Below are positions 661-62,735 of a stretch of DNA of 64,000 bases, in pieces. How positions within the stretch are numbered: position 1 is the first letter of the stretch; each line of letters starts with the position of its first letter. The stretch comes from a bacterium M00.F.Ca.ET.205.01.1.1 (GTDB lineage Bacteria; Pseudomonadota; Alphaproteobacteria; Rhizobiales; Rhizobiaceae): positions 527,050-591,049 of the forward strand of contig SRUQ01000002.1 in NCBI GenBank assembly GCA_004791255.1. The letters run 5' to 3'. The notes under the pieces were generated by a model. It saw only the letters and a program-made list of their open reading frames with translations. It did no database searches and was not told where the DNA came from. A program made the position numbers and the translations under genes.

Positions 661-1392
661 CTACAATTTCCAAGACATTATTTCATTTAGCGTCAATCCA
701 GTAATAGATAAATAATTTCCAAGGTCCATAAAATTGTGACTGCGTGTGTCGCAATACTCGAAGTTTGAATCAAAATTTATCTCAACCACAGCGTATATAA
801 TTTTCCCAAAAATCTCCCAATCGCTTACATTGCAAATAAGCGTTCCATTCTTTGAGAAAATCCCAATGCTAAATCGCATTCTCCAGCCGTATTTTATCCT
901 AATGTCAAATGTCAATCTAACGTCAATTTCAGTGAGAAATTTATTTCCGCGCCAAGTTAAATATCCGCTATCTTTATTCGATGAAACATTTTTTAGATCT
1001 AAGCTTTCAAAATAATCTTTAGTCATGGATGAAATAATTTTGACATCGGATCCATCTGGTGTTTCGCGGCTAGGAAAATTTTCGTCATGGTTATAAAGGT
1101 ATCCGGTCCGATCCTTCCATCGGCCGACATCTTCAATAATGTTGTGAAGCTGATGCTCCTCTATGGAGCTCATTGCCGCGGATAGTGGCATCGCCTGCTG
1201 GAAACGCCGCGCCATGAACGTGGCCTCCGCCTGGAATCGATCTATATTGCTTTCCCTTATTGCAGGCTCATCGAAAATATCCTTATAACTAGTATATTTA
1301 AGCTTTGAGAATGCTCCTTGCCGATTATCAATCGAGCGAAAAAGTACCTCAAGATTTTGTCTAACCAACTTTCTAAGGTTAGCGTCCACCAT
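661..1392 (-). CDS. Hypothetical protein, AT-rich orphan 1
   Basis: 243-residue soluble protein with no signal peptide or membrane segment and no family I recognise. It starts at ATG 1392 with an AGGAG about 11 bases upstream, which supports a real gene. The N-terminal half is helical and charged. The C-terminal half is rich in aromatic and beta-forming residues (for example RIKYGWRMRFSIGIFSKNG), which could form a beta-sandwich. Base composition is visibly AT-richer than the neighbouring core genes. It sits between RAYT element A and a degraded RAYT end. An immunity or effector-accessory role is a guess from context only. Confidence 0.6.
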   Translation of the reverse strand: MVDANLRKLVRQNLEVLFRSIDNRQGAFSKLKYTSYKDIFDEPAIRESNIDRFQAEATFMARRFQQAMPLSAAMSSIEEHQLHNIIEDVGRWKDRTGYLYNHDENFPSRETPDGSDVKIISSMTKDYFESLDLKNVSSNKDSGYLTWRGNKFLTEIDVRLTFDIRIKYGWRMRFSIGIFSKNGTLICNVSDWEIFGKIIYAVVEINFDSNFEYCDTRSHNFMDLGNYLSITGLTLNEIMSWKL

Positions 1393-4835: not shown

Positions 4836-5617
4836 GTCCTGAACACCCCGATCATCGGCCCCAGATTCCAGTAGTCGTCGTTGCGGCCGATGGCCGGCGC
4901 CAGCAGGCTCGAGATCGTGCCGTCGAGAAACAGCGCATTGTCGCAGCCGAGCGCATCGCGAAACAGGCGGGCGAATTCGTGGAACGTCACCGTGCCGTTC
5001 GAGATGGCGAAGACAACGACGCCATCCCCGCGCACGCCGACACCGTCACGGGTCTTGCGCGAGGTCCTGTCGGGCTGGAATTTCGGATGCAGCTGGCCGT
5101 CGATCACCAGCATCGGTCCCGATTGCGTCGCATAGTCGGACGCTGGCCGCTTCCTGACGAAATCGCTGGTCGCGCGCACCGCGGCCTTGCCGCCGCTGAG
5201 GTAGAAGATGCCGTTCGGCTGCAGCGAGAAATTCCCGGTGCCCGAGCCGGTCTTGACGGTGGCCATTTCCTGGCCGCGCTCGACATAGAGGCCGACCGGC
5301 GCGAGGTCGGGATGATACATGCCGGCATTGATGGCAAACAGCATGGTGCGGCCGGCCGCGCGCTGGGCGTTGTCGAGATTGTGCAGCGACTGAAATGGTT
5401 TGCCGGTAGCATCCTTCCAGAACAGCTCGATCGAATAGCGCTTCGGATCGACCTCGCAGACCAGAAAGCTGCCCGCCTCGAAGACAAAATCCCGGCATGG
5501 CGGCAGCGATGCGAGCCACTGGCCGAGCCCCATGCCTACCGCTGCCACCGAAGGCAGCGCCGCCTTGACCAGTGCGAGGAGCAAGGGGGCCGATTGCAGA
5601 AAGGTCAAGAAATCCAT
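4826..5617 (-). CDS. Phosphodiester glycosidase family protein (NAGPA/DUF2233-like)
   Basis: 263 residues from ATG 5617 (a GTG at 5656 is the longest alternative). The hydrophobic N-terminus (LTFLQSAPLLLALVKAALPSVAAVGMGLG) suggests membrane anchoring or export. The core shows family hallmarks: MLFAINAGMYHPDLAPVGLYVERG, the NGIFYL segment, TQSGPMLVIDG, and the C-terminal LFLDGTISSLLAP. Relatives include the mammalian mannose-6-phosphate uncovering enzyme and bacterial exopolysaccharide-related proteins, so it probably hydrolyses a sugar phosphodiester in the envelope. Substrate unknown. Confidence 0.82.
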   Translation of the reverse strand: MDFLTFLQSAPLLLALVKAALPSVAAVGMGLGQWLASLPPCRDFVFEAGSFLVCEVDPKRYSIELFWKDATGKPFQSLHNLDNAQRAAGRTMLFAINAGMYHPDLAPVGLYVERGQEMATVKTGSGTGNFSLQPNGIFYLSGGKAAVRATSDFVRKRPASDYATQSGPMLVIDGQLHPKFQPDRTSRKTRDGVGVRGDGVVVFAISNGTVTFHEFARLFRDALGCDNALFLDGTISSLLAPAIGRNDDYWNLGPMIGVFRTGG

Positions 5618-8858: not shown

Positions 8859-9254
8859 TCAAGGCGGCGGCGCGCCTTCATATTGCGGCAGCCCGTCATC
8901 GAGCACCAACCAAGGCTGCTTCGAAGCGGTGAAAATGTGCATCTGCGGCCTGAAGCCCGTGGGATCATCAAGCGAGCCGGTGGTGATGCCGATGATGCCG
9001 GCGGAATCGCGCCGCGAGAACATCGTCGTGCCGCAACTCGGGCAAAACCCGCGCTTGAGATCTGGCGAGGTGTTCACGGTCGCCAGGGGCCCCTCGATCG
9101 TCACCTCGTCGATGCGAAACAACACGCGCGCATTGAAGGCCGCGCCGATCGCCTTCTGGCAAAGCCGGCAATGGCAAATGCGTTCGTTGATGGGGGCCGC
9201 GTCGGCACGGTAACGCACCGCGCCGCACAGGCACCCGCCCTGATGTTTAGCCAT
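8859..9254 (-). CDS. GFA family protein (glutathione-dependent formaldehyde-activating-like)
   Basis: 131-residue zinc protein of the GFA/CENP-V fold. The Cys pattern is complete: GGCLCGAVRY at the N-terminus, CHCRLCQKA about residue 28, and FCPSCGTTMF about residue 70. Most members of this large family have no proven substrate, so the formaldehyde label should be taken as a family name only. Monocistronic. Confidence 0.85.
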   Translation of the reverse strand: MAKHQGGCLCGAVRYRADAAPINERICHCRLCQKAIGAAFNARVLFRIDEVTIEGPLATVNTSPDLKRGFCPSCGTTMFSRRDSAGIIGITTGSLDDPTGFRPQMHIFTASKQPWLVLDDGLPQYEGAPPP

Positions 9255-9370
9255 GACTGTAATCCATGATGAGGAGAGTGTACCGCCAAGGTAATGACGG
9301 CACCGATTGGGTCAATTGAAAAGCTTTGATACAATTTCATCGATTACCGTGATGCGGCGAGATTTTGGCC

Positions 9371-10399
9371 ATGACGCAAGACATCGAGACCATCGGCATT
9401 GCGGATCTGTTCGGGCCAGCCTCGTCCGGCCGCGACCGCGCCGACGCCAGCATCATGGCCGCCGCCGCGGGGATAGGCTTCATGGCGGTTCGGGACTTTC
9501 CCGGCGACGACTGGCTGACGCCGGAGAAGCGAGCGCAGTTGCTGCGCATCTTTTCACTGCCCGACGCCGAGAAGCAGAAATTGCTGCGCTGGAATTTCGA
9601 CCGCACCAGGAAGAACGTTTATCGCGGCTGGTTCCCGCTGCAGCCGACGGCCATTTCCTACAAGGAAGGCATCGACATGGGACCAGATCTCGCCGATCCG
9701 GCGGACGTACCGGTCTCCGGCGATCCGCTGTGCGAGCCGACACCCTTGCCAAGCGAAGATGTCCTGCCCGGCTGGCGCGCGGCGGCGGCAGATTACTACC
9801 GCGCCATGGGGACGGTCGGCAACGCGCTGATGCGGTCGATTGCGCGCGGCCTTGGCCTGCCGGAAACGATCTTCGACAGCTATTTCGACAACGGCGTCTC
9901 GACGCTGCGCCTGATCCGTTATCCCTTGCGCGACGCCAACAGCGGCGTCGATCTGAGCGGGCCGGAATTTGCCGTCGTCCACAAAGGCGAGACGCGCACC
10001 ATCATCGGGCGCGAGCATGCCGATTCCGGCTTCGTCACCTTGCTGGCGCAGGATGGCGTCGAGGGCCTGCAGGCAAAGAATCTGGCTGGCGATTGGATCG
10101 ACGTGCCGCCTGCCGACGGCACGCTGGCAGTCAATTTCGGCCAATTGCTGGAACGCTGGACCGGCGGACGTGTCCGGGCGACGCGACACCGGGTGATTGC
10201 CCCGAAGACGGCGCGGTTCTCGATCCCTTTCTTCTACGAACCACGCGTCGACGCCGAGATCGCGCCATTGCCGTTGAGCGGCGCCGAGGCCTTCGAGCCG
10301 TTCCTCTACGGCGACTACCTCTGGGAGTCGGCGACGAATTTCGTCGAGATGAGCGGCATCAAGCATCTGAGGCAGCCGCGCCGCGCCAAGGCTTCATAA
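9371..10399 (+). CDS. 2-oxoglutarate/Fe(II)-dependent oxygenase, isopenicillin-N-synthase family
   Basis: 342 residues from ATG 9371 (TTG 9365 is alternative). DIOX_N-like N-terminus (IGFMAVRDFPGDDWLTPEKR), then the jelly-roll core. The iron facial triad is His and Asp of REHADSGFVTLL plus the distal His of RATRHRVIAP; the 2-oxoglutarate-binding Arg-x-Ser is in ARFSIPFFYEP. Likely hydroxylates or oxidises a small metabolite. No pathway partner is adjacent. Confidence 0.88.
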   Translation: MTQDIETIGIADLFGPASSGRDRADASIMAAAAGIGFMAVRDFPGDDWLTPEKRAQLLRIFSLPDAEKQKLLRWNFDRTRKNVYRGWFPLQPTAISYKEGIDMGPDLADPADVPVSGDPLCEPTPLPSEDVLPGWRAAAADYYRAMGTVGNALMRSIARGLGLPETIFDSYFDNGVSTLRLIRYPLRDANSGVDLSGPEFAVVHKGETRTIIGREHADSGFVTLLAQDGVEGLQAKNLAGDWIDVPPADGTLAVNFGQLLERWTGGRVRATRHRVIAPKTARFSIPFFYEPRVDAEIAPLPLSGAEAFEPFLYGDYLWESATNFVEMSGIKHLRQPRRAKAS

Positions 10400-11808: not shown

Positions 11809-11961
11809 TTCGATTCCTCGCGGCGAACACCCTCGTTTGGATAAGCTGTTTGCCTGGCAAGGCCAAGGGCGGCGCAAGGCGGGCGACGCTGGCCTGATCG
11901 TTTCCATTTGACGGTTGGCTGGTAGCCGGTCGAAATGGCGGCCTCACTGTTTCTGGGTTTC

Positions 11962-13602
11962 ATGATCAAGCTGCCGACCGAATTTCCCGATTTCGGACTG
12001 ACGCCCGAGCAGCGCCGGCACGCGGTGCGCGGCCACTATTATGAATGGCCCGGCATGGATGGAGAGCGCGGCGAGATCTGGTGCTACAGCGACCGCTTTT
12101 CCTATCGCGCCGGCGAAATGGTGACGCTGCATGTCAGTTCGACGGCGCCGTCCCTAGGCATGACGATCGTTCGTGACGGTGGCACAGAAACGAAAGTGTT
12201 CGAGAGGTCGGGCATCGCGGCGCGCTGGCAGGACACGCCGGACCAATGCTCTGTCGAAGGCTGCGGTTGGGAAGCCTCCTTCGATTTCCGCGTTGGGACG
12301 GACTGGCCGTCCGGCGCCTATCTGATAACGCTGACCGCGGACGGTCGCGACGGCAAGCCGATCCAGAGCCACCACATTTTCATCGTCTCTCCCCAACCCG
12401 GCAGGAAACCCGGCCGTGTGCTGCAGGTGGCGGCGACGGGCACCTGGCTCGCCTACAACACCTGGGGTGGCTCCAACCACTACCAGGGCATCACCGGGCT
12501 GGATCGAAACCAGTATTCGCCGATCGTATCGACACAGCGCCCCTGGTGCCGTGGCTTCGTCACGCTGCCCAAGGACGCGCCGCGCGTGCCGTTGGAAGTC
12601 GCGGTGCCGCCGAAGACGATACCGCGCTATCCGCACATGGAATGGGCGCTCGCCACCGGCCATTCCAAGAAATACGCCTCATCGGGCTGGGCGAGTTACG
12701 ACAGCCATTTTTTCCGTTTCGCCGAGCGGGCCGGCTATACCGTCGACCTCGCCAGCCAGCACGATTTGCATGTCTCGCCTGAGATTCTCGATGGCTATGA
12801 CTGCGTGGTTTTCGTCGGCCACGACGAGTACTGGACCTGGGAGATGCGCGACGCCGTCGACTTCTATGTCGAACGCGGCGGCCATGCGGCGCGCTTTGCC
12901 GGCAACTTCATGTGGCAGACCAGGCTGGAGGACGAGGGCCGCCGGCAGGTCTGCTACAAATACCGCGCTCGCGCCGAAGATCCGGCGTATCGCGGCGGCG
13001 ATGTCAGCCGCGCCACCAACTCCTGGGAAGCGCCGGAGATCGGCAGGCCGGGTTCGGCGACATTCGGGCTCAACGCCACGCGTGGCGTCTATGCCGGCTG
13101 GGGCGGCTGCGCGCCGCGCGGCGTGCGCGGTTTTCCGGTCTATCGGCCCGAGCACTGGGCGTTCGCCGGCACCGGCATCTACTATGGCGACCTGCTCGGC
13201 GCCGACAGCCATGTCTATGGCTATGAGGTGGACGGGCTCGATTTCGAAATTCGCGGCGGCCTGCCCTACCCCACCGCCACCAGCGGCGCGCCTGACGGCT
13301 TGCAGGTACTCGCGGTCGGCATGGCCAGCCAGGTCGAGGAAAGCGCCGATATCCCGATCGAGGACCAGTTCCTCACCGACGAGGATGGCCGCTTCACCGC
13401 CGAGACGCTGTTCGGGGAGCCGAGCGACGCGAACCTCGAAAAGGTCAAACGCGGCAGCGGCATGATCGCTAATTTCCCGCGCGGCAAGGGCGAGGTGTTC
13501 CACGCCGGAAGCTGCGAATGGGTTGCCGGCCTGCTAAGACAGGACCCGATGGTCGAGCGCGTCACCCGAAATGTCCTCGATCGCTATCTCGGAAAGTCCT
13601 GA
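11962..13602 (+). CDS. N,N-dimethylformamidase beta-subunit-like amidohydrolase
   Basis: 546 residues from ATG 11962 (ATG 11935 possible). It belongs to the DMFase large-subunit-like family: an N-terminal beta-sandwich (RGEIWCYSDRFSYRAGEMVTLHVSS) and a glutamine-amidotransferase-like core with GTWLAYNTWGGSNHY and the conserved VVFVGHDEYWTWEMRDAV. In Paracoccus DMFase the iron ligands are two Tyr and one Glu, and Tyr/Glu candidates lie in this block. No small subunit gene is present. First gene of a six-gene operon; the aminotransferase ATG follows its stop by one base. It probably cleaves an amide or forms one in the pathway encoded downstream. Confidence 0.78.
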   Translation: MIKLPTEFPDFGLTPEQRRHAVRGHYYEWPGMDGERGEIWCYSDRFSYRAGEMVTLHVSSTAPSLGMTIVRDGGTETKVFERSGIAARWQDTPDQCSVEGCGWEASFDFRVGTDWPSGAYLITLTADGRDGKPIQSHHIFIVSPQPGRKPGRVLQVAATGTWLAYNTWGGSNHYQGITGLDRNQYSPIVSTQRPWCRGFVTLPKDAPRVPLEVAVPPKTIPRYPHMEWALATGHSKKYASSGWASYDSHFFRFAERAGYTVDLASQHDLHVSPEILDGYDCVVFVGHDEYWTWEMRDAVDFYVERGGHAARFAGNFMWQTRLEDEGRRQVCYKYRARAEDPAYRGGDVSRATNSWEAPEIGRPGSATFGLNATRGVYAGWGGCAPRGVRGFPVYRPEHWAFAGTGIYYGDLLGADSHVYGYEVDGLDFEIRGGLPYPTATSGAPDGLQVLAVGMASQVEESADIPIEDQFLTDEDGRFTAETLFGEPSDANLEKVKRGSGMIANFPRGKGEVFHAGSCEWVAGLLRQDPMVERVTRNVLDRYLGKS

Positions 13603-13603
13603 C

Positions 13604-14989
13604 ATGTCGAAAGTCCAGACCGCCGCTGCCGATGCCGACACCCGCCGGCCATCGCATCTGTTTTATCTGTCCAGCCTGCGCCGGCCGCTCGTCGACCGCG
13701 CCGAGGGCATCTATTTCTGGACGCAGGACGGCCGCCGCTTCATCGACGGATCGAGCGGGCCGATGGTGGCCAATATCGGCCATTCCAACCGCAATGTGCT
13801 CGACGCCATGAAGCGGCAGATGGACAAGACCACTTTTGCCTACCGGCTGCATTTCGAAAACGAGCCGGCCGAGGAACTGGCGCGGGAACTGGCGGGAAAG
13901 CTGCCTGAAGGCATGGACCGTATCTTCTTCGTCTCGGGCGGCTCCGAGGCAACGGAATCCTGCATCAAGCTGGCGCGGCAATGGGCTGTCGCAACCGGCC
14001 AGCCCAAGCGCTGGAAAGTGATCACGCGCTTTCCCTCCTATCATGGCGGCACGCTGGGTTCGCTGTCGGTCACCGGCGACGATGCCCTGGCCGAGACTTT
14101 TGCGCCGATGATGCAGGTGATGCCGACCGTGCCGGCGCCGATCGCGTGGCGCGACCGCGACAACCTTTCGATGGAACAGCGCGGCATCCGCTATGCCGAC
14201 ATGCTGGAGGAGAAGATCCTGACCGAAGGCCCGGAGACCGTGCTTGCCTTCATCATGGAGCCGATCGGCGGAGCGGCTACGTCGGCTCTCGTGGCGCCCG
14301 ACAGCTATTATGCGCGCATCCGCGAAATCTGCGACCGCTCCGGCATCCTGCTCATCCATGACGAAGTGATGAGCGGCGCCGGCCGCACGGGCAAATTCCT
14401 TGGCGGCGACCACTGGAACTGCAAGCCCGACATCGTCGCGCTGTCGAAGGGGCTGGGCTCCGGCTACGCACCGCTCGGCGCGCTGGCGGCGCCGATGCGG
14501 CTGGTCGAGCCATTGCTGGCGTCCGGCGGCTTCCAGCATGGCCACACCTATGCCGGCAATCCGCTCGCCTGCGCCGCCGGCCTTGCCGTGCTCGGCGAAA
14601 TGGACCGGCTCGACCTGATCGCCAATGCGGCAGCCATGGGCGACGTACTGATGGACGGATTGAAGGGACTGGCGAAACGATTTCCGTTCATCGCCGACGT
14701 GCGCGGCAAGGGCCTGCTCACCGGCGCCGAGATGGTTGCCGATCCCGAGACACTGCGGCCAATCGACCAGGGCAGGAAAGCCACCCAGCGCCTGCTCGAC
14801 CTTGCCTACGAGCGCGGGCTGATCATCTACGGCCGCAAGGTCAAGGGCGGTGTCGACGGCGACAATTTCATGGTCGCGCCCCCGATGATCGTCACCAGCG
14901 AACAGCTCGGCGAGATCATCTCCATCATCGGCGATTCGCTGGAGGTTCTGGCCTCCGAACTCGACCTGCCGATCGAAGGCCGGGAGTAA
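13604..14989 (+). CDS. Class III PLP-dependent aminotransferase
   Basis: 461 residues, fold-type I omega-aminotransferase. The PLP lysine is Lys282 in IVALSKGLGSG, the cofactor-contacting Asp253 is in LLIHDEVMSGAGRTGK, and the phosphate-binding SGGSEATES is at 111-118. The ATG at 13604 comes one base after the upstream stop, implying coupled translation. Members convert beta- or omega-amino acids, or diamines, to oxo compounds. Next to a BKACE enzyme this suggests production of a beta-keto acid. Confidence 0.92.
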   Translation: MSKVQTAAADADTRRPSHLFYLSSLRRPLVDRAEGIYFWTQDGRRFIDGSSGPMVANIGHSNRNVLDAMKRQMDKTTFAYRLHFENEPAEELARELAGKLPEGMDRIFFVSGGSEATESCIKLARQWAVATGQPKRWKVITRFPSYHGGTLGSLSVTGDDALAETFAPMMQVMPTVPAPIAWRDRDNLSMEQRGIRYADMLEEKILTEGPETVLAFIMEPIGGAATSALVAPDSYYARIREICDRSGILLIHDEVMSGAGRTGKFLGGDHWNCKPDIVALSKGLGSGYAPLGALAAPMRLVEPLLASGGFQHGHTYAGNPLACAAGLAVLGEMDRLDLIANAAAMGDVLMDGLKGLAKRFPFIADVRGKGLLTGAEMVADPETLRPIDQGRKATQRLLDLAYERGLIIYGRKVKGGVDGDNFMVAPPMIVTSEQLGEIISIIGDSLEVLASELDLPIEGRE

Positions 14990-14993
14990 AGGA

Positions 14994-15923
14994 ATGGCGC
15001 CGCGAAAAGTCATCATCACCTGCGCCGTCACCGGTTCGGTGCACACGCCGTCGATGTCGCCCTATCTGCCGGTGACGCCGGACCAGATCGCGACGGATGC
15101 GATCGCGGCCGCCGAAGCCGGCGCCTCGATCCTGCATCTGCACGCCCGCGACCCCAGGGATGGCCGGCCGACCGCCGACCCTGACGTGTTCATGCAGTTC
15201 CTGCCGCGCATCAAGCAGGCAACCGATGCAGTCATCAACATCACCACCGGTGGTTCGTCGCTGATGACGCTCGACCAGCGATTGGCCGCGCCGCTCAGGG
15301 CGGAGCCCGAAATGTGCTCGCTCAACATGGGTTCAATGAATTTCGGGCTGTTTCCGATGCTCGACAAGCCGCGGGAATGGCAGCACGAATGGGAGCCGAA
15401 GCTGCTCGAAGCCACGCGCGACACCATCTTCAAGAACACCTTCGCCGACATTGAGGGGGTCCTAGAGCGGCTTGGTAAGGGCTGCGGTACCCGCTTCGAG
15501 TTCGAATGCTACGATGTCGGCCACCTCTATTCGCTGGCGCATTTCCGCGACCGGGGCCTCGTATCCGGACCGCTGTTCATCCAGTTCGTGCTCGGCATTC
15601 TGGGCGGTATCGGCGCCGACCCGGACAATCTCATCCATATGAAAAGGATTGCCGACAAGCTGTTCGGCGACAGTTACCAGTTCTCGGTACTGGCCGCCGG
15701 CCGCCATCAGATGCCGCTGATCTCGATCGCCGCCGCCATGGGCGGCAATGTCCGCGTCGGGCTGGAAGACAGTCTCTATGATGGGCGGCAGCTGACGAAA
15801 TCCAATGCCGACCAGGTGCGCAGGATCCGAGCTATTCTCGACGGGCTGTCGCTGGACGTTGCAACGCCGTCCGAGGCACGTGAGATGCTGGCGCTGAAGG
15901 GTGGCGACCGGGTGGCTTTCTAG
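14994..15923 (+). CDS. BKACE family beta-keto acid cleavage enzyme (DUF849)
   Basis: 309 residues. The family (prototype 3-keto-5-aminohexanoate cleavage enzyme, Kce) condenses a beta-keto acid with acetyl-CoA to give acetoacetate and a CoA ester. Zinc ligands are visible as His48 and His50 in ILHLHARDP, with the conserved Glu in NVRVGLEDSLYDG; TGSVHTPSMSPYLPVTP near the N-terminus is typical. AAGGA overlaps the aminotransferase stop four bases upstream. The side-chain specificity that separates BKACE subfamilies cannot be read with certainty here. Confidence 0.92.
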   Translation: MAPRKVIITCAVTGSVHTPSMSPYLPVTPDQIATDAIAAAEAGASILHLHARDPRDGRPTADPDVFMQFLPRIKQATDAVINITTGGSSLMTLDQRLAAPLRAEPEMCSLNMGSMNFGLFPMLDKPREWQHEWEPKLLEATRDTIFKNTFADIEGVLERLGKGCGTRFEFECYDVGHLYSLAHFRDRGLVSGPLFIQFVLGILGGIGADPDNLIHMKRIADKLFGDSYQFSVLAAGRHQMPLISIAAAMGGNVRVGLEDSLYDGRQLTKSNADQVRRIRAILDGLSLDVATPSEAREMLALKGGDRVAF

Positions 15924-15943
15924 AAGCGAGGGAGGAGACTGAT

Positions 15944-16447
15944 ATGGAAAGGGTTCTCGTTTCCGCCTGCCTGCTCGGCAGCCATGTCCGCTATAACGGC
16001 TCCTATCGCCTGAACGACCATCCCGTCCTGACACGCTGGCAGGCGGAAGGTCGGGTCGTGCAAATCTGTCCGGAGGTTGCCGCGGGCTTCTCCACGCCGC
16101 GTCCAGCCGCAGAAATTCACGGCACAGCCGGCTCTGTGCTCCACGGCCAAGGTCAAGTGGTCGAGCAGACGGGAAGCGATGTGACCGCACTTTATCTCGA
16201 AGCCGGGCAGCTTGCGCTCGAACTCGCTCGAGAAACTGGATGCCGCTATGCCGTTCTTACCGACGGCAGTCCGTCCTGCGGCAGCAGCTTCGTTTTTGAT
16301 GGTAGTTTTTCAGGCAAGCGCGTTGCCGGTCGCGGCACCACCACCGCTTTATTGGAAGCCAATGGCATTCGCGTCTTCTCGGAAGACAATATCGGCGACC
16401 TTGACGATCTCCTGACCAAGCCCGGCTCAGCCGAAAACGCGGCCTGA
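15944..16447 (+). CDS. DUF523 family protein
   Basis: 167 residues with all three conserved Cys motifs of DUF523: VSACLLGSHVRYNG, QICPEVAAG and LTDGSPSCGSS. The cysteines could bind a metal or iron-sulfur cluster, but no function is established for the family. Good GGAGG ribosome-binding site, 20 bases after the BKACE stop, so in the operon. Confidence 0.88.
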   Translation: MERVLVSACLLGSHVRYNGSYRLNDHPVLTRWQAEGRVVQICPEVAAGFSTPRPAAEIHGTAGSVLHGQGQVVEQTGSDVTALYLEAGQLALELARETGCRYAVLTDGSPSCGSSFVFDGSFSGKRVAGRGTTTALLEANGIRVFSEDNIGDLDDLLTKPGSAENAA

Positions 16448-16450
16448 TCC

Positions 16451-16978
16451 ATGGCAGACGAGATCCAGCCCGACACCAGCGATACCGTCATCCGCCACGG
16501 CACAATCGACGACGCCGAAACCATCCATGCAGCGCTTCTCAAACTCGGCACCCACATCGGCGCCCATCAGGAGATCACGTCGACTGTCGATGATCTCCGA
16601 AGTTATGGCTTTGGCGAAAAACCTGCCTTCTCCACCCTGATCGCCGAAGTCGGTGGCGAATTCGCCGGACTTTGTCTGCACTTCCCGATCTTTTCCACCT
16701 GGATGGGGCGGCCCGGCGTGTATGTGCAGGACCTCTATGTCGAGGACCGCTTTCGCGGCCGCAAGATCGGCGAGCGCCTGTTGCGACGGGTGGCGGCCGA
16801 GTGCCGCAGGGATGGCGGTGTCTATCTCAGGCTGTCCGTCGACACCGACAATGAGAGCGCCAAGGCTTTTTACGAGAGGCTGGGCATCGCCTGGTCGAAT
16901 TACGAGCAGACGCAGAAGATCATGGGCGACGCCTTTTTTGCCTTTGCCGACGCGCCGGGAAATGGGGAACAGGAATGA
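16451..16978 (+). CDS. GNAT N-acetyltransferase
   Basis: 175 residues with a full GNAT core: GRPGVYVQDLYVEDRFRGRKIGERLLRRVA contains the acetyl-CoA loop RxxKIG, and the C-terminal ESAKAFYERLGIAW is the canonical beta6-beta7 segment. Close in type to spermidine/diamine acetyltransferase-like GNATs. Three bases after DUF523, and it overlaps the deacetylase start by four bases (ATGA). Acetylation and deacetylation functions encoded side by side suggest a protected amine intermediate. Confidence 0.88.
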   Translation: MADEIQPDTSDTVIRHGTIDDAETIHAALLKLGTHIGAHQEITSTVDDLRSYGFGEKPAFSTLIAEVGGEFAGLCLHFPIFSTWMGRPGVYVQDLYVEDRFRGRKIGERLLRRVAAECRRDGGVYLRLSVDTDNESAKAFYERLGIAWSNYEQTQKIMGDAFFAFADAPGNGEQE

Positions 16979-18003
16979 AAGCCTTCTATGCGCAGGAACA
17001 GAAGCGCCACGACCCCAAGGCCTTTCTCTCCAGTGGCGCGGCGCAGCCCAATCCGGAAAAACCGGAGCGCGTCGAGAGATTGTTAGCCGGCGCAATATAT
17101 GCCGGCTGCACCATCGAAAGACCGGGGAATCATGGGCTTGGCCCGGTTGCTGCCGTGCATACGCCCGAATATCTCGACTTCCTCGAACATATTTTCCAGC
17201 GCTGGCAGCGGATCGAAGGCGCCTCGGCGGAGGTGATCCCCAACATCCACCCAATCGCACGCGGCGGATCCTATCCGGCCTCCGCCGTCGGCCAGGCCGG
17301 CTACCACATGGCCGATACGGCTTGTCCCATCTCGGGCGAAACCTGGCAAAGCGCGCTATGGAGCGCCTGGAGCGCGGTCGAGGCGGCTGAAACCGTCATG
17401 GCCGGTGCCCCGGCAGCATATGCACTTTGCCGGCCGCCAGGCCACCATGCCTTTGCCGATGTCGCCGGCGGCTTCTGTTTCATCAACAATTCAGCCGTTG
17501 CGGCCCAGCTTCTGCGCAGGCAGGCGGCGCGCGTGGCGATCCTCGACGTCGACCTGCACCACGGCAACGGCACGCAAGGCATTTTCTATGCCCGGCCCGA
17601 CGTGCTCACCGTCTCGCTGCATGCCGATCCGGTGCGCTTCTATCCGTTCTTCTGGGGCCATGCCGACGAACGCGGCGAAGGTCCGGGCCTCGGCTACAAT
17701 TTCAACCTGCCATTGCCGCGCAAATCCGCGGACGCGGCGTTTCTGGAAGCGCTTGGCGTGGCGTTCCAGCGCATCCGCGCCTTTTCGCCTGATGCCCTGG
17801 TCGTCGCGCTCGGCCTCGACGCGTTCGAGGGCGATCCGTTCGGCGGGCTTTCAGTGACGACGCCAGGCTTCTCGCGCATCGGCGAGGCGATCGCCGCGCT
17901 TGGCCTGCCGACCGTCATCGTCCAGGAAGGCGGCTATCTCTGCGACGCGCTCAGCGACAACCTCACCGCATTCCTCACCGGCTTCGGCGGCAAGGCGCGG
18001 TAA
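16975..18003 (+). CDS. Histone-deacetylase-fold amidohydrolase, acetylpolyamine amidohydrolase type
   Basis: 342 residues, class II deacetylase fold. Active-site His157-His158 in RPPGHHAF; zinc ligands Asp193 and His195 in ILDVDLHHGNG and Asp282 in GLDAFEGDP; catalytic Tyr321 in QEGGYLCD. The spacing is within about two residues of that reported for the Mycoplana ramosa enzyme, which removes acetyl groups from polyamines. Last gene of the operon, overlapping the GNAT gene. Confidence 0.9.
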   Translation: MKAFYAQEQKRHDPKAFLSSGAAQPNPEKPERVERLLAGAIYAGCTIERPGNHGLGPVAAVHTPEYLDFLEHIFQRWQRIEGASAEVIPNIHPIARGGSYPASAVGQAGYHMADTACPISGETWQSALWSAWSAVEAAETVMAGAPAAYALCRPPGHHAFADVAGGFCFINNSAVAAQLLRRQAARVAILDVDLHHGNGTQGIFYARPDVLTVSLHADPVRFYPFFWGHADERGEGPGLGYNFNLPLPRKSADAAFLEALGVAFQRIRAFSPDALVVALGLDAFEGDPFGGLSVTTPGFSRIGEAIAALGLPTVIVQEGGYLCDALSDNLTAFLTGFGGKAR

Positions 18004-18018: not shown

Positions 18019-19284
18019 TCAGGACCGTTGCTGCCTGAGCATGGCGATGACGCGATGCACGCTCTCCAGCGTCTCGTCGATCTCGGCTGACGTGTTGTAG
18101 TGCGCGATGCCGATGCGCACGACACCCTGCTCGGCCGGAATGCCGAGTTGATGGACGATCTCCCAGGCGTAGTTATGGCCGGACCACAGGAAGATGTTTT
18201 CGGCGTTCATCTGCCGCACGATCGTCTCCGGTACGATGCCGTCGACGGTGAACGACACGGTCGGCACACGTTCATGGATGCGCGCGGGGTCGGTGATGCC
18301 GTAGATCGTCAGCCCAGAAATATCGGACAGGCCGTCGATCAGCCGCTGCGCCAACGGGTTTTCGTAGGCGATGGATACGTCGAATGCCCTGGCTATCTTC
18401 GCGCGTCGCGACCCGCCCTCGCCGGCTGCCGCGCCAAGGCCGGCAAAATAGTCGACGGCAGCGGTAAGGCCGGCCATCAACTCGATCTGCGGCGTGCCGA
18501 GTTCGAACCGTTCCGGCAACCCATTCGACGAACAGCGGCATTTGTACGCTTTCAGACCGTCGATGAGATCGCGCCGGCCCCAGAGGATGCCCATATGCGG
18601 GCCGAAGAATTTGTAGGCCGAGCAGATCAGGAAGTCGCAGCCGATATCCTGCACATCGACCAGGCCATGCGGCGCGAACTGCACGGCGTCGACATAGACC
18701 AGCGCGCCGGCTTGTTTTGCGAGATGTGTCAGGGCCTTAACACGATTGATCGAACCAGTAAGATTGCTGGCATAGTTCAACGCCACCAGCCTTGTCCTGG
18801 CGGACAACAGCCCGGCCAGTGTCGCCTCTTCGATCTGCCAGGTCTTTTCGTCGAACGGCAGCCAGCGCACGACGAGGCCAAGATCCTCCGCCAGTTGCAG
18901 CCAGGGCGAGACATTGCCCTCATGATCCATACGGGTGAGGATGATCTCGTCGCCTGATTTCAGCGTGCGGCCGAGGGTGCGCGACATGTGATAGGTCAGC
19001 GTCGTCATGTTGGCGCCGATGATGATTTCCTCGGCAGTTGTGGCGCCGAGAAAATCCGCCATTGCCGCGTGCGCTTCGTCGACGACAGCTTGAGCGGCAA
19101 TCGTCGTTTCGAAGAAACCACCCAGATTGGCGTTAGTGGTCAGCAGGCAGTGCGCCACCGCATCGGCGACCGCCTGCGGGACCTGCGTGCCGGCGGGGTT
19201 GTCGAGATAGATACGGCGGCGGCCCTTGTCGGTGAGAGCAAGTGCCGGAAATTTCGCCCGCACCTCGTCAATCTGAAATGTCAT
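18019..19284 (-). CDS. Cysteine-desulfurase-like PLP enzyme (class V aminotransferase fold)
   Basis: 421 residues from ATG 19284 with GGGAGGGACC upstream; the frame runs further 5' into the neighbouring gene but that is not coding. Recognised by IYLDNPAGTQVPQAV, the PLP lysine in FLICSAYKFFGPHMG, and VALNYASNLTG. It belongs to the desulfurase-like branch whose members often lack true sulfur-transfer activity, and no cysteine loop of the IscS type is evident. It is 28 bases downstream of the aldo/keto reductase, hence co-transcribed, and convergent with the deacetylase operon. Confidence 0.85.
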   Translation of the reverse strand: MTFQIDEVRAKFPALALTDKGRRRIYLDNPAGTQVPQAVADAVAHCLLTTNANLGGFFETTIAAQAVVDEAHAAMADFLGATTAEEIIIGANMTTLTYHMSRTLGRTLKSGDEIILTRMDHEGNVSPWLQLAEDLGLVVRWLPFDEKTWQIEEATLAGLLSARTRLVALNYASNLTGSINRVKALTHLAKQAGALVYVDAVQFAPHGLVDVQDIGCDFLICSAYKFFGPHMGILWGRRDLIDGLKAYKCRCSSNGLPERFELGTPQIELMAGLTAAVDYFAGLGAAAGEGGSRRAKIARAFDVSIAYENPLAQRLIDGLSDISGLTIYGITDPARIHERVPTVSFTVDGIVPETIVRQMNAENIFLWSGHNYAWEIVHQLGIPAEQGVVRIGIAHYNTSAEIDETLESVHRVIAMLRQQRS

Positions 19285-19312
19285 TGGTCCCTCCCCGTAC
19301 TGCTGTGCCTGC

Positions 19313-20380
19313 TCAAGGACACGGATTGCCGTTGCGCTGATGGATGGCATCAACCGCCTTCTGCATCTCCTCGGTCCAGGCAATTTCCGCCGAGGACAGC
19401 GCCATATCGAGCTGCGCGACACTGGTGGCGCCGACGATGTTCGAGGTGACGAAGGGCCGGCTCGATACATAGGCATTGGCGAACAAGGCCGGCTCCAGGC
19501 CGAAGGAGCGCGCCAGTTCATTGTATTCCAGCAGCACCTCGGCGGCATTCGGCGTCTCGTAGCGCTGGCCGCGGTTGAACAGCTGCGAGCGCGAGCCCTG
19601 CGGGCGCGCGCCATGGTCGTATTTGCCGGTCAGATAGCCCTGCGCCAGCGGCGAATAGGCGAGCAACGACACCTCTTCGCGTTCGCAGACTTCAGCGAGG
19701 TTCACCTCGAAGGTGCGATTGACGAGATTGTAGGCGTTCTGGATCGAAGCAACGCGCGGACCGGCGCCTTTGTCTGCTTCGGCAAGGTAGCGCATCGTAC
19801 CCCAGGAGCTCTCGTTCGAGAGGCCAAAGTGACGAATCTTGCCCAGCCTCACCAGGTCCTCAAAGACAGCAAGCGTTTCGGCGATGGGCGTTTCATTGGA
19901 CGGTGCGCCTTCCGCATCGGCGCGCCGCCCCACTGCTCCGACACGCGTCGGGTTGGCCCCCCAGGGAATGTCGCGTTCGGGCCAATGAATCTGGTAGAGA
20001 TCGAGATAGTCGGTTCCGAGCTTGGCCAATGACTTGTCGATGGCATCGAAAATATCGGCGCGCACCAATTGCGAGGGCCTGTCACCGCGAAACCAGGTGT
20101 TGGCGGTGCGGCCGACAACCTTGGAGGCGAGGATCACCTTGTCGCGATTGCCCTTGGCCTTCATCCAGCTGCCGATGATCTTTTCGGTCCGTCCTTGCGT
20201 CTCCGCCTTGGGCGGGATCGAGTAGAGCTCCGCGGTGTCGATGAAATTGACGCCGCGCGAGAAGGCCAGGTCCATCTGGGCGTGCCCCTCAGCCTCGGTG
20301 TTCTGCTGCCCCCAGGTCATCGAGCCCAGGCAAATCTGGGTAACAAGAAGGTCGGTCCGGCCAAGACGGCGTTTATGCAT
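19313..20380 (-). CDS. Aldo/keto reductase (Tas/YajO type)
   Basis: 355 residues of the NADPH-dependent AKR superfamily. Catalytic residues are visible: Asp and Tyr in FIDTAELYS, Lys in VILASKVVG, His in DLYQIHWPERD. The N-terminal KRRLGRTDLLVTQICLGSMTWG is typical. Starts at ATG 20380 behind GGAG, upstream of the PLP enzyme in one unit. Physiological substrate unknown. Confidence 0.9.
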   Translation of the reverse strand: MHKRRLGRTDLLVTQICLGSMTWGQQNTEAEGHAQMDLAFSRGVNFIDTAELYSIPPKAETQGRTEKIIGSWMKAKGNRDKVILASKVVGRTANTWFRGDRPSQLVRADIFDAIDKSLAKLGTDYLDLYQIHWPERDIPWGANPTRVGAVGRRADAEGAPSNETPIAETLAVFEDLVRLGKIRHFGLSNESSWGTMRYLAEADKGAGPRVASIQNAYNLVNRTFEVNLAEVCEREEVSLLAYSPLAQGYLTGKYDHGARPQGSRSQLFNRGQRYETPNAAEVLLEYNELARSFGLEPALFANAYVSSRPFVTSNIVGATSVAQLDMALSSAEIAWTEEMQKAVDAIHQRNGNPCP

Positions 20381-62472: not shown

Positions 62473-62604
62473 GACTGCTGCCTTTTCCAGGAAAACCGCC
62501 GGCAACCCGGCGGAAATGGGCTTTCGTATTTCAGAAGGTGGATTGGCCTTTTAGCGGTAGCTCTTGACCCTGTCCAGAAACACGGAATTGGGCCAATTCG
62601 CTTA

Positions 62605-62704
62605 AAGCGCGTCGCGTTGAAACGGATTCATACGACGCGCTTCAAGTTTTTGTTTTCATGCATGTCGTTCTCCCAAAACCGAGGCCACTTTTGGGCGACA
62701 TGCA
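62605..62704. repeat. RIME-like double-hairpin repeat between alaS and recA
   Basis: Two tandem stem-loops: AAGCGCGTCG/CGACGCGCTT (62605-62614, 62633-62642) and TGCATGTCG/CGACATGCA (62659-62667, 62696-62704). The architecture (about 100 bp, two palindromes) matches Rhizobium intergenic mosaic elements. It lies in the 371-bp gap 62473-62843, whose only other feature is the recA terminator. Confidence 0.7.
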
Positions 62705-62735
62705 TTGGTCCGTCAGCGCTTGAACGGGCCGCAAA

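Follow-up and report, generated by a model that had tools for sequence, protein, structure and literature searches.

A conserved gene unit around a beta-keto acid cleavage enzyme in a Rhizobiaceae genome: candidate protecting-group route for beta-lysine catabolism

Results and Discussion

A putative catabolic operon in the window

The stretch of DNA analyzed in this study, referred to as the window, comprises 64,000 nt (positions 527050-591049 of contig SRUQ01000002.1) within the 6.9 Mb assembly of the alphaproteobacterium M00.F.Ca.ET.205.01.1.1 (Rhizobiaceae) and carries a putative catabolic operon of six genes, A to F, which includes a beta-keto acid cleavage enzyme (BKACE). Its nearest relatives place the window in Mesorhizobium. 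The original prediction, made from the sequence alone, had placed six genes on one strand with gaps of -4 to 20 bases. This was confirmed by the listing of open reading frames (ORFs) of the window, in which the intergenic gaps from A to F are 1, 4, 20, 3, and -4 bases, and by a Pfam scan, in which all six proteins exceeded the curated cut-offs. The genes, all on the plus strand, are the following:

11962..13602, plus strand: gene A, dimethylformamidase (DMFase)-like putative amide hydrolase (PF20254 DMFA2_C, 234 bits)
13604..14989, plus strand: gene B, class III aminotransferase (PF00202, 310 bits)
14994..15923, plus strand: gene C, BKACE (PF05853, 355.1 bits, cut-off 24.8, profile positions 1-274 of 274)
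15944..16447, plus strand: gene D, DUF523 / 2-thiouracil desulfurase family (PF04463, 133 bits)
16451..16978, plus strand: gene E, GCN5-related N-acetyltransferase (GNAT; PF00583, 56 bits)
16975..18003, plus strand: gene F, histone-deacetylase-like / acetylpolyamine amidohydrolase-like protein (PF00850, 250 bits)

An in-frame ATG at 11935 is a possible alternative start of A, as is an upstream ATG at 13571 for B. Scans of the window for tRNA genes and Rfam families were uninformative for the operon. The family of D had been described in the original prediction as lacking a known function, which is superseded, as Pfam now names PF04463 2-thiouracil desulfurase.

Conservation of the unit in related genomes

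With gene C as query and one genome per species, at least 588 relatives were confirmed. The best 80 loci from other genomes were kept, and their neighbor content was read by phmmer on ORFs together with a codon-usage gene call; labels such as L004 refer to individual loci. We found the set ABC(D)EF contiguous in 50 of the 80 loci and partial in 20, some of these on cut contigs, and 10 loci were without any of A, B, E, and F. Among the contiguous loci are rows labelled Phyllobacteriaceae, Rhizobiaceae, and Brucellaceae. Within them, the median gaps are -4 bases between A and B, 9 between B and C, and -4 between E and F; the median gap between C and E is 53.5 bases in the 48 contiguous loci where D was not called. 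This arrangement is not due to chance, and the earlier expectation of one catabolic unit with a gene order kept among relatives is borne out by the 50 contiguous loci. The membership has to be revised in one respect: A, B, C, E, and F are conserved, but D was found in only 3 of the 80 loci (L016, L024, and L026), all Mesorhizobium. The conserved unit is thus one of five genes, not six, and we rejected DUF523 as a pathway enzyme in favor of an accessory insertion.

Many loci carry further genes. An amino-acid ABC importer (binding protein, one or two permeases, ATPase) lies directly upstream in 17 of the 80 loci, a LysR gene is present in 27, and a hotdog thioesterase gene in 16; these counts are approximate because the queries were taken from L042 and L038 and the score thresholds were chosen by us. 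On annotated plasmids, operon neighbors are named amino-acid ABC transporter, LysR, thioesterase, or acyl-CoA thioesterase. One such plasmid has B-C-E-F without A, importer, or annotated thioesterase, and another record shows a LysR gene followed by A-B-C-E-F. The top models for one operon importer binding protein were those for cystine and for Lys/Arg/Orn, both under the cut-off. A literature search with little coverage of subscription journals yielded no paper that we recognized as dealing with this operon.

Exchange of enzymes in related arrangements

The main support for the pathway proposed below came from loci in which enzymes are replaced. In Zavarzinia (L062), B-C-E is followed by an M20 deacylase in the place of F, which is 50% identical to an ArgE/DapE-type deacylase encoded on a Sinorhizobium medicae plasmid. 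The Thalassospira locus L076 encodes B and C together with F (415 bits); farther along it encodes an M20 deacylase that shares 48% identity with the S. medicae protein. On the S. medicae plasmid itself, an amino-acid ABC importer and A are followed by LysR, CoA-transferase A and B, the deacylase, a thiolase, a GNAT, and an aminotransferase. Its A protein is 75% identical to that of the window, its GNAT is 40% identical to E, and its LysR shares 51% identity with the one in the operon of L004, as much as the operon LysRs of L004 and L065 share with each other (50.6%). The aminotransferase is 25% identical to B and has a beta-transaminase (2yku) and a beta-phenylalanine aminotransferase (4ao9) as best solved relatives. 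The importer differs in type, its binding protein sharing 26% identity with the L004 one. The CoA-transferase and the thiolase therefore appear to take the place of the BKACE, as would be anticipated if the substrate is a beta-keto acid. In S. terangae, genes for a CoA-transferase, a thiolase, and amino-acid permeases are found at most 10 kb from A.

We read these arrangements as one pathway with exchanged enzymes, in which a beta-amino acid would be temporarily N-acetylated and the resulting beta-keto acid would be cleaved either by a BKACE or by CoA-transferase plus thiolase. Two earlier suggestions gain from this comparison. The supply of a beta-keto acid to the BKACE by the aminotransferase is a function kept on the S. 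medicae plasmid although the enzymes are exchanged, and the pairing of GNAT and deacetylase around a protecting group is likewise kept with an exchanged enzyme, both in L062 and on the S. medicae plasmid.

Proposed pathway and candidate enzymes

Taken together, we consider it fairly probable, though far from assured, that the operon encodes a protecting-group route for the catabolism of beta-lysine (3,6-diaminohexanoate) or of a closely similar omega-amino beta-amino acid. What the data show is which genes are present, how they are ordered and conserved, their homology, and the pattern of enzyme exchange; from this we infer each reaction, the substrate, what A does, and whether the thioesterase or the deacetylase acts first. 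E would acetylate the terminal amine of beta-lysine, and B would transaminate the 3-amino group to give 3-keto-6-acetamidohexanoate. C would react this compound with acetyl-CoA to acetoacetate and 4-acetamidobutyryl-CoA, from which the hotdog thioesterase of the fuller loci and F would remove CoA and the acetyl group to leave 4-aminobutyrate (GABA). With the amine free, 3-keto-6-aminohexanoate should cyclize to a five-membered ring, and 4-aminobutyryl-CoA should likewise form a lactam; acetylation of the terminal amine would prevent this.

The Barker group reportedly described this reaction sequence for the aerobic degradation of L-beta-lysine by a Pseudomonas growing on it, in enzymological work without genes. 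In this account, beta-lysine is N6-acetylated and then transaminated to 3-keto-6-acetamidohexanoate; cleavage gives 4-acetamidobutyryl-CoA, and deacetylation and thioester hydrolysis lead to GABA. No paper on this Pseudomonas pathway was found in the literature search, with its limited coverage of subscription journals. The operon family has one candidate for each of these steps: E, B, C, and F are encoded in the window, and the thioesterase is known from loci of relatives (16 of 80). It differs from the Pseudomonas pathway in occurring in other organisms, in its extra DMFase-like gene, and in being known from genes alone. What is new is the gene assembly for this chemistry. The substrate, which the original prediction had left as unknown, thereby has a specific and testable candidate in beta-lysine.

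B, the proposed N6-acetyl-beta-lysine aminotransferase, has its best matches among NCBIfam models in PRK07483 (419.5 bits) and PRK06917 (414.9 bits), with the next at 358 bits, and its best solved structure match is 3i4j.

C, the proposed 3-keto-6-acetamidohexanoate cleavage enzyme, scores 524.6 bits with NF053538, the NCBIfam model for a 3,5-dioxohexanoate:acetyl-CoA enzyme (cut-off 430). Taken literally, this name would make the operon a degradation route for 3,5-dioxohexanoate (triacetate), and the related BKACE15 of Paracoccus is reported to accept 3,5-dioxohexanoate as well as other C5-C6 beta-keto acids (PMC11961710). However, all 5 BKACEs tested passed the model, whether operon-linked or not, so that its name does not indicate the role of C. 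The two sets nevertheless lie on different sides of a branch and have fixed differences: F198 and F230 are present in 71 of 71 operon-linked BKACEs, compared with T and W in 10 of 10 unlinked ones. According to alignments, T and W also occupy these positions in BKACE15 and in 3e49, and C and L in 3e02. Positions 198 and 230 probably line the pocket, and gene C lacks the T and W of BKACE15 there. In a maximum-likelihood tree of 81 BKACE rows, a single branch (99/92; 99% of 200 bootstrap trees) separates the 10 unlinked ones from the rest. The operon-linked BKACEs are not thereby shown to be a clade, because the linked L080 (B, another ORF, C, F) is sister to the unlinked ones on the midpoint-rooted tree. 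In addition, triacetate would not call for an aminotransferase, a GNAT, or a deacetylase, and nothing like the phloroglucinol-type cluster described in PMC10470551 was seen at the operon. We hardly credit triacetate as the substrate.

Two further identities of C were rejected, that of the KCE of lysine fermentation on the model score (226.5 bits, cut-off 382) and that of the carnitine BKACE because the genome holds a different copy. This second BKACE (L002) is 32% identical to C, has 3c6c as its closest solved structure, and lies beside an apparent carnitine 3-dehydrogenase gene, as read from the sequence. The carnitine-type pathway, in which dehydrocarnitine is cleaved, resembles the proposed route in that an upstream enzyme makes the beta-keto acid, the BKACE acts with acetyl-CoA, and a hotdog thioesterase takes part; unlike it, the operon uses an aminotransferase. 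In its C-terminal part, the carnitine 3-dehydrogenase model weakly matches the operon thioesterase (24.1 bits, cut-off 592).

E is the proposed acetyltransferase for the terminal (N6) amine of beta-lysine, and F would deacetylate 4-acetamidobutyrate, either free or as the CoA ester. The best solved relatives of E are thialysine acetyltransferase (12jc), 2fe7, and diamine acetyltransferase 2, and those of F are 3men (355.6 bits), 9gkz (291.4 bits), and 6phr (286.8 bits). F had been named an acetylpolyamine deacetylase; it does belong to the acetylpolyamine amidohydrolase fold group, but nothing in the neighborhood points to polyamines. These relationships of E and F would also suit an acetylation and deacetylation of polyamines or diamines, with the BKACE serving a separate beta-keto acid. 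We regard this as very improbable. The annotated neighbors examined included no polyamine gene, the M20 deacylase that replaces F in L062 is of the ArgE/DapE type, which acts on acyl-amino acids, and a futile acetylation cycle would leave B and C unexplained.

A has the same C-terminal domain family as the large subunit of Paracoccus DMFase (PDB 6lvb/6lvd), which has 775 residues compared with 546 in A; the N-terminal part of the chain is unmatched. The DMFase report names five catalytic positions, the iron ligands Tyr, Tyr, and Glu together with His and Asn (PMC7686228). Alignment with 6lvd equates Y399, E521, H519, and N547 with Y165, E289, H287, and N315 of A, all four of which are invariant in 20 homologues, and placed no counterpart of the second iron tyrosine, Y440, in A. 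An AlphaFold model of A based on 20 sequences was poor (mean pLDDT 54.5). The earlier view of A as an amide opener is plausible, and the protein would probably free the beta-amino acid from an amide ahead of acetylation. A would be an optional feeder of the pathway, because it is missing from several B-C-E-F loci (L041, L055, L056, L065, and L069) and is present in other settings. Plasmid loci with a BKACE that were opened by annotation or gene table included several without A and one with it. An A of 71% identity lies beside ectoine-utilization-like genes in Rhizobium CCGE532, and homologues of 42-50% identity occur in unrelated catabolic settings. On plasmids of Dinoroseobacter (L088) and Shinella (L094), A-like genes of about 50% identity are located directly 3' of a CoA-transferase gene.

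Proposed link to beta-lysine

The connection with lysine comes from relatives of E. Four rhizobial plasmids with a lysine-2,3-aminomutase-like gene encode GNATs that share 40-44% identity with E. At an identity of at least 71%, the S. medicae-type GNAT clade comprises 9 plasmid records, and the aminomutase-like gene of one clade is found in 13 records at 78% or more (78-100%); all 9 GNAT records also hold the aminomutase-like gene. In Rhizobium C104 (L124), it lies directly 5' of a CoA-transferase-deacylase-thiolase-GNAT series, and the set of CoA-transferase A/B, deacylase, thiolase, and GNAT was seen in 4 of the 5 annotated records opened (L085, L122, L124, and L125); in the fifth, S. meliloti L123, it was not found within 24 kb. 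The aminomutase-like protein retains the residues aligned with D293, D330, and K337 of 2a5h. It scores 555.9 bits with TIGR03822 (cut-off 396.25) and 290.9 bits with the model for AblA proper, below the cut-off of 525.4.

A second link is provided by a Bacillaceae operon from Cytobacillus spongiae (L131), in which genes for an aminotransferase, CoA-transferase A/B, an M20 peptidase, ablB, and ablA stand in a row; AblB (285.6 bits, cut-off 205.1) is the beta-lysine acetyltransferase. As in the operon of the window, the aminotransferase is of class III; it belongs to PRK06917 (626.8 bits) and is 38% identical to B over 416 aa. The M20 peptidase, 36% identical to the L062 deacylase, represents a family sister to that deacylase. 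Differences are that the Bacillaceae operon makes beta-lysine itself through ablA, uses a CoA-transferase and not a BKACE, has an M20 protein and not F, and is without a DMFase-like gene. In Deinococcus, a different aminotransferase, 33% identical to B, is encoded near the KamA gene.

The same logic could serve another beta-amino acid that bears two amines, for instance 3,5-diaminopentanoate, beta-lysine carrying a hydroxyl group, or one that A releases from a conjugate, with acetyl protection, transamination, BKACE cleavage, and deacetylation unchanged. In fact, the replacement pattern fixes the chemistry, a beta-keto acid and an N-acetyl group, better than the chain length, and the F198/F230 pocket signature of the operon BKACEs names no substrate. 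Yet lysine is suggested by two findings, the ablA-ablB operon and the aminomutase-like gene that travels with a related GNAT, and we consider a different substrate unlikely.

A number of observations weigh against beta-lysine as the substrate. B falls under the cut-off of both of its best models. AblB (TIGR03827) is not among the 10 NCBIfam families that match E at E <= 0.001, and the S. medicae plasmid GNAT gave no match to the AblB model either; E would be a non-orthologous counterpart of AblB. With queries of the L004 type, neither an operon-type importer binding protein (best 35%) nor an operon-type LysR (best 31%) was found in the window's genome, and the original prediction of a complete pathway does not hold in this respect; an aminomutase paralogue of the kind described above is likewise absent from this genome (best 46%). 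B is missing from the operon in L037, L038, L047, and L060, whose genomes contain no aminotransferase more than 40% identical to B and at best a 36% match to the S. medicae-type enzyme. E is missing from the operon in the first three of these, each with an E homologue of 45-47% identity elsewhere in the genome. The idea that such variants need neither enzyme is thus weakened for E, in view of these homologues, and stands for B, with nothing above 40%. The nine GNAT-clade plasmids are not independent, because five of them are from S. meliloti with equal GNAT identity. A 73% relative of the aminomutase-like clade is a chromosomal gene annotated beside genX/epmA, so the protein may derive from an EF-P modifying enzyme, and its activity on the free amino acid is uncertain. 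The L131 aminotransferase matches two aminotransferases of ectoine-like rhizobial clusters (283 and 280 bits) slightly better than B (274 bits). Finally, the GNAT of S. meliloti L123 lies 3' of genes for aspartate-semialdehyde dehydrogenase (ASADH) and a kinase, a position that also fits 2,4-diaminobutyrate.

A 2,4-diaminobutyrate or ectoine-like pathway, in which E would be a diaminobutyrate acetyltransferase, the M20 protein or F an acetyl-diaminobutyrate deacetylase, and B a diaminobutyrate aminotransferase, would accommodate this GNAT of a related clade as well as the A gene next to ectoine-utilization-like genes in Rhizobium CCGE532. E does score with the EctA model, but at 19.9 bits it lies far under the cut-off of 120.6. 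Moreover, transamination of either amine of diaminobutyrate yields no beta-keto acid, which would leave the BKACE, or the CoA-transferase and thiolase, without a substrate. We judge this pathway quite improbable.

A possible nodule exchange

Beyond beta-lysine catabolism as such, we considered whether the operon family could form the degrading side of an exchange in nodules, similar to that of rhizopines, with a beta-lysine amide as the compound exchanged. To make the amide, bacteroids would use the lysine-2,3-aminomutase-like enzyme together with an ATP-grasp amino-acid ligase, both expressed from nifH promoter copies; free-living kin would import it, A would open it, and E-B-C-F or the CoA-transferase/thiolase version would burn the beta-lysine. 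ATP-grasp-built amides would be the most attractive substrates of A because A co-occurs with ATP-grasp ligases on symbiotic plasmids. Among 13 plasmid records with an A of at least 60% identity, 5 have an operon-type BKACE; 6 of the other 8 are among the ATP-grasp matches listed (60 of 147), one of the six with only a fragment of A. The window's genome holds four ATP-grasp ligase copies, one of which was scanned and has an L-amino-acid ligase C-terminal domain, and the ligase occurs in 11 of 19 genomes of its genus and in 0 of 12 others.

In S. meliloti L123 (ml46 pSymA), three exact TGGCAC-N5-TTGC(A) sites (918-933, minus strand; 5275-5290 and 8954-8969, plus strand) lie in sequence that shares about 90% identity with regions upstream of nifH; they precede ATP-grasp, ATP-grasp/aminomutase, and ASADH/kinase/GNAT genes. 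In L122, L125, and L129, ATP-grasp genes are likewise preceded by sites of this type, as is an ASADH/kinase/ATP-grasp run in L128. This layout presumably resembles that of the rhizopine mos locus. In L123, and also in L128 and L129, copies of the nifH promoter that include the nifH start precede ATP-grasp, aminomutase-like, ASADH/kinase/GNAT, or ATP-grasp plus ectoine-synthase genes.

Several findings speak against such an exchange. No nifH-type promoter site was found in the aminomutase regions of S. medicae L133 or S. americanum L132, and no fitting one in L124; the lack of an aminomutase paralogue in the window's genome counts here too, and the operon also occurs in non-nodulating bacteria. 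We regard nodule exchange as a speculative and rather unlikely extension. The ATP-grasp ligase regions of the window's genome (L146 and L147) have a GC content of 58-59%, compared with 63% in the window, and contain transposase-like genes; a scan of their long ORFs gave no clear beta-lysine cluster.

Neighboring features of the window

The operon of the window is flanked by the genes listed first below. The oxygenase lies outside the conserved unit in the loci examined, and genes like the pair at 18022-19368 and 19313-20380 are also located 3' of the operon in L004. The last two entries lie farther away.

9365-10399, plus strand: 2-oxoglutarate/Fe(II) oxygenase, 5' of the operon, without an NCBIfam match
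18022-19368, minus strand: cysteine-desulfurase-like protein (TIGR01976, 601.9 bits)
19313-20380, minus strand: aldo/keto reductase, judged from sequence
48441, plus strand: single exact sigma-54-like TGGCAC-N5-TTGC match, possibly by chance
62572-62714, minus strand: match to the Brucella sRNA CI27 family (RF02600, 67.2 bits, gathering score 59.8)

Implications

If beta-lysine is indeed the substrate, the operon would provide candidate genes for N6-acetyl-beta-lysine aminotransferase and 4-acetamidobutyryl-CoA deacetylase, two activities that were reportedly purified decades ago without genes. It would also give a natural role to operon-linked BKACEs whose database name stems from another substrate, and would suggest a purpose for the ablA-ablB/yod operon of Bacillus; we take the L131 ablA-ablB operon to correspond to kamA-yodPQRST of B. 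subtilis. A 2019 survey gives the physiological role of KamA as undetermined and YodT as uncharacterized (PMC6522883). For A, this would be the first pathway for a DMFase-like enzyme beyond solvent degradation. Beta-lysine is an unusual amino acid in some antibiotics, and beta-lysine catabolism in these bacteria would raise the question of beta-lysine compounds in legume nodules.

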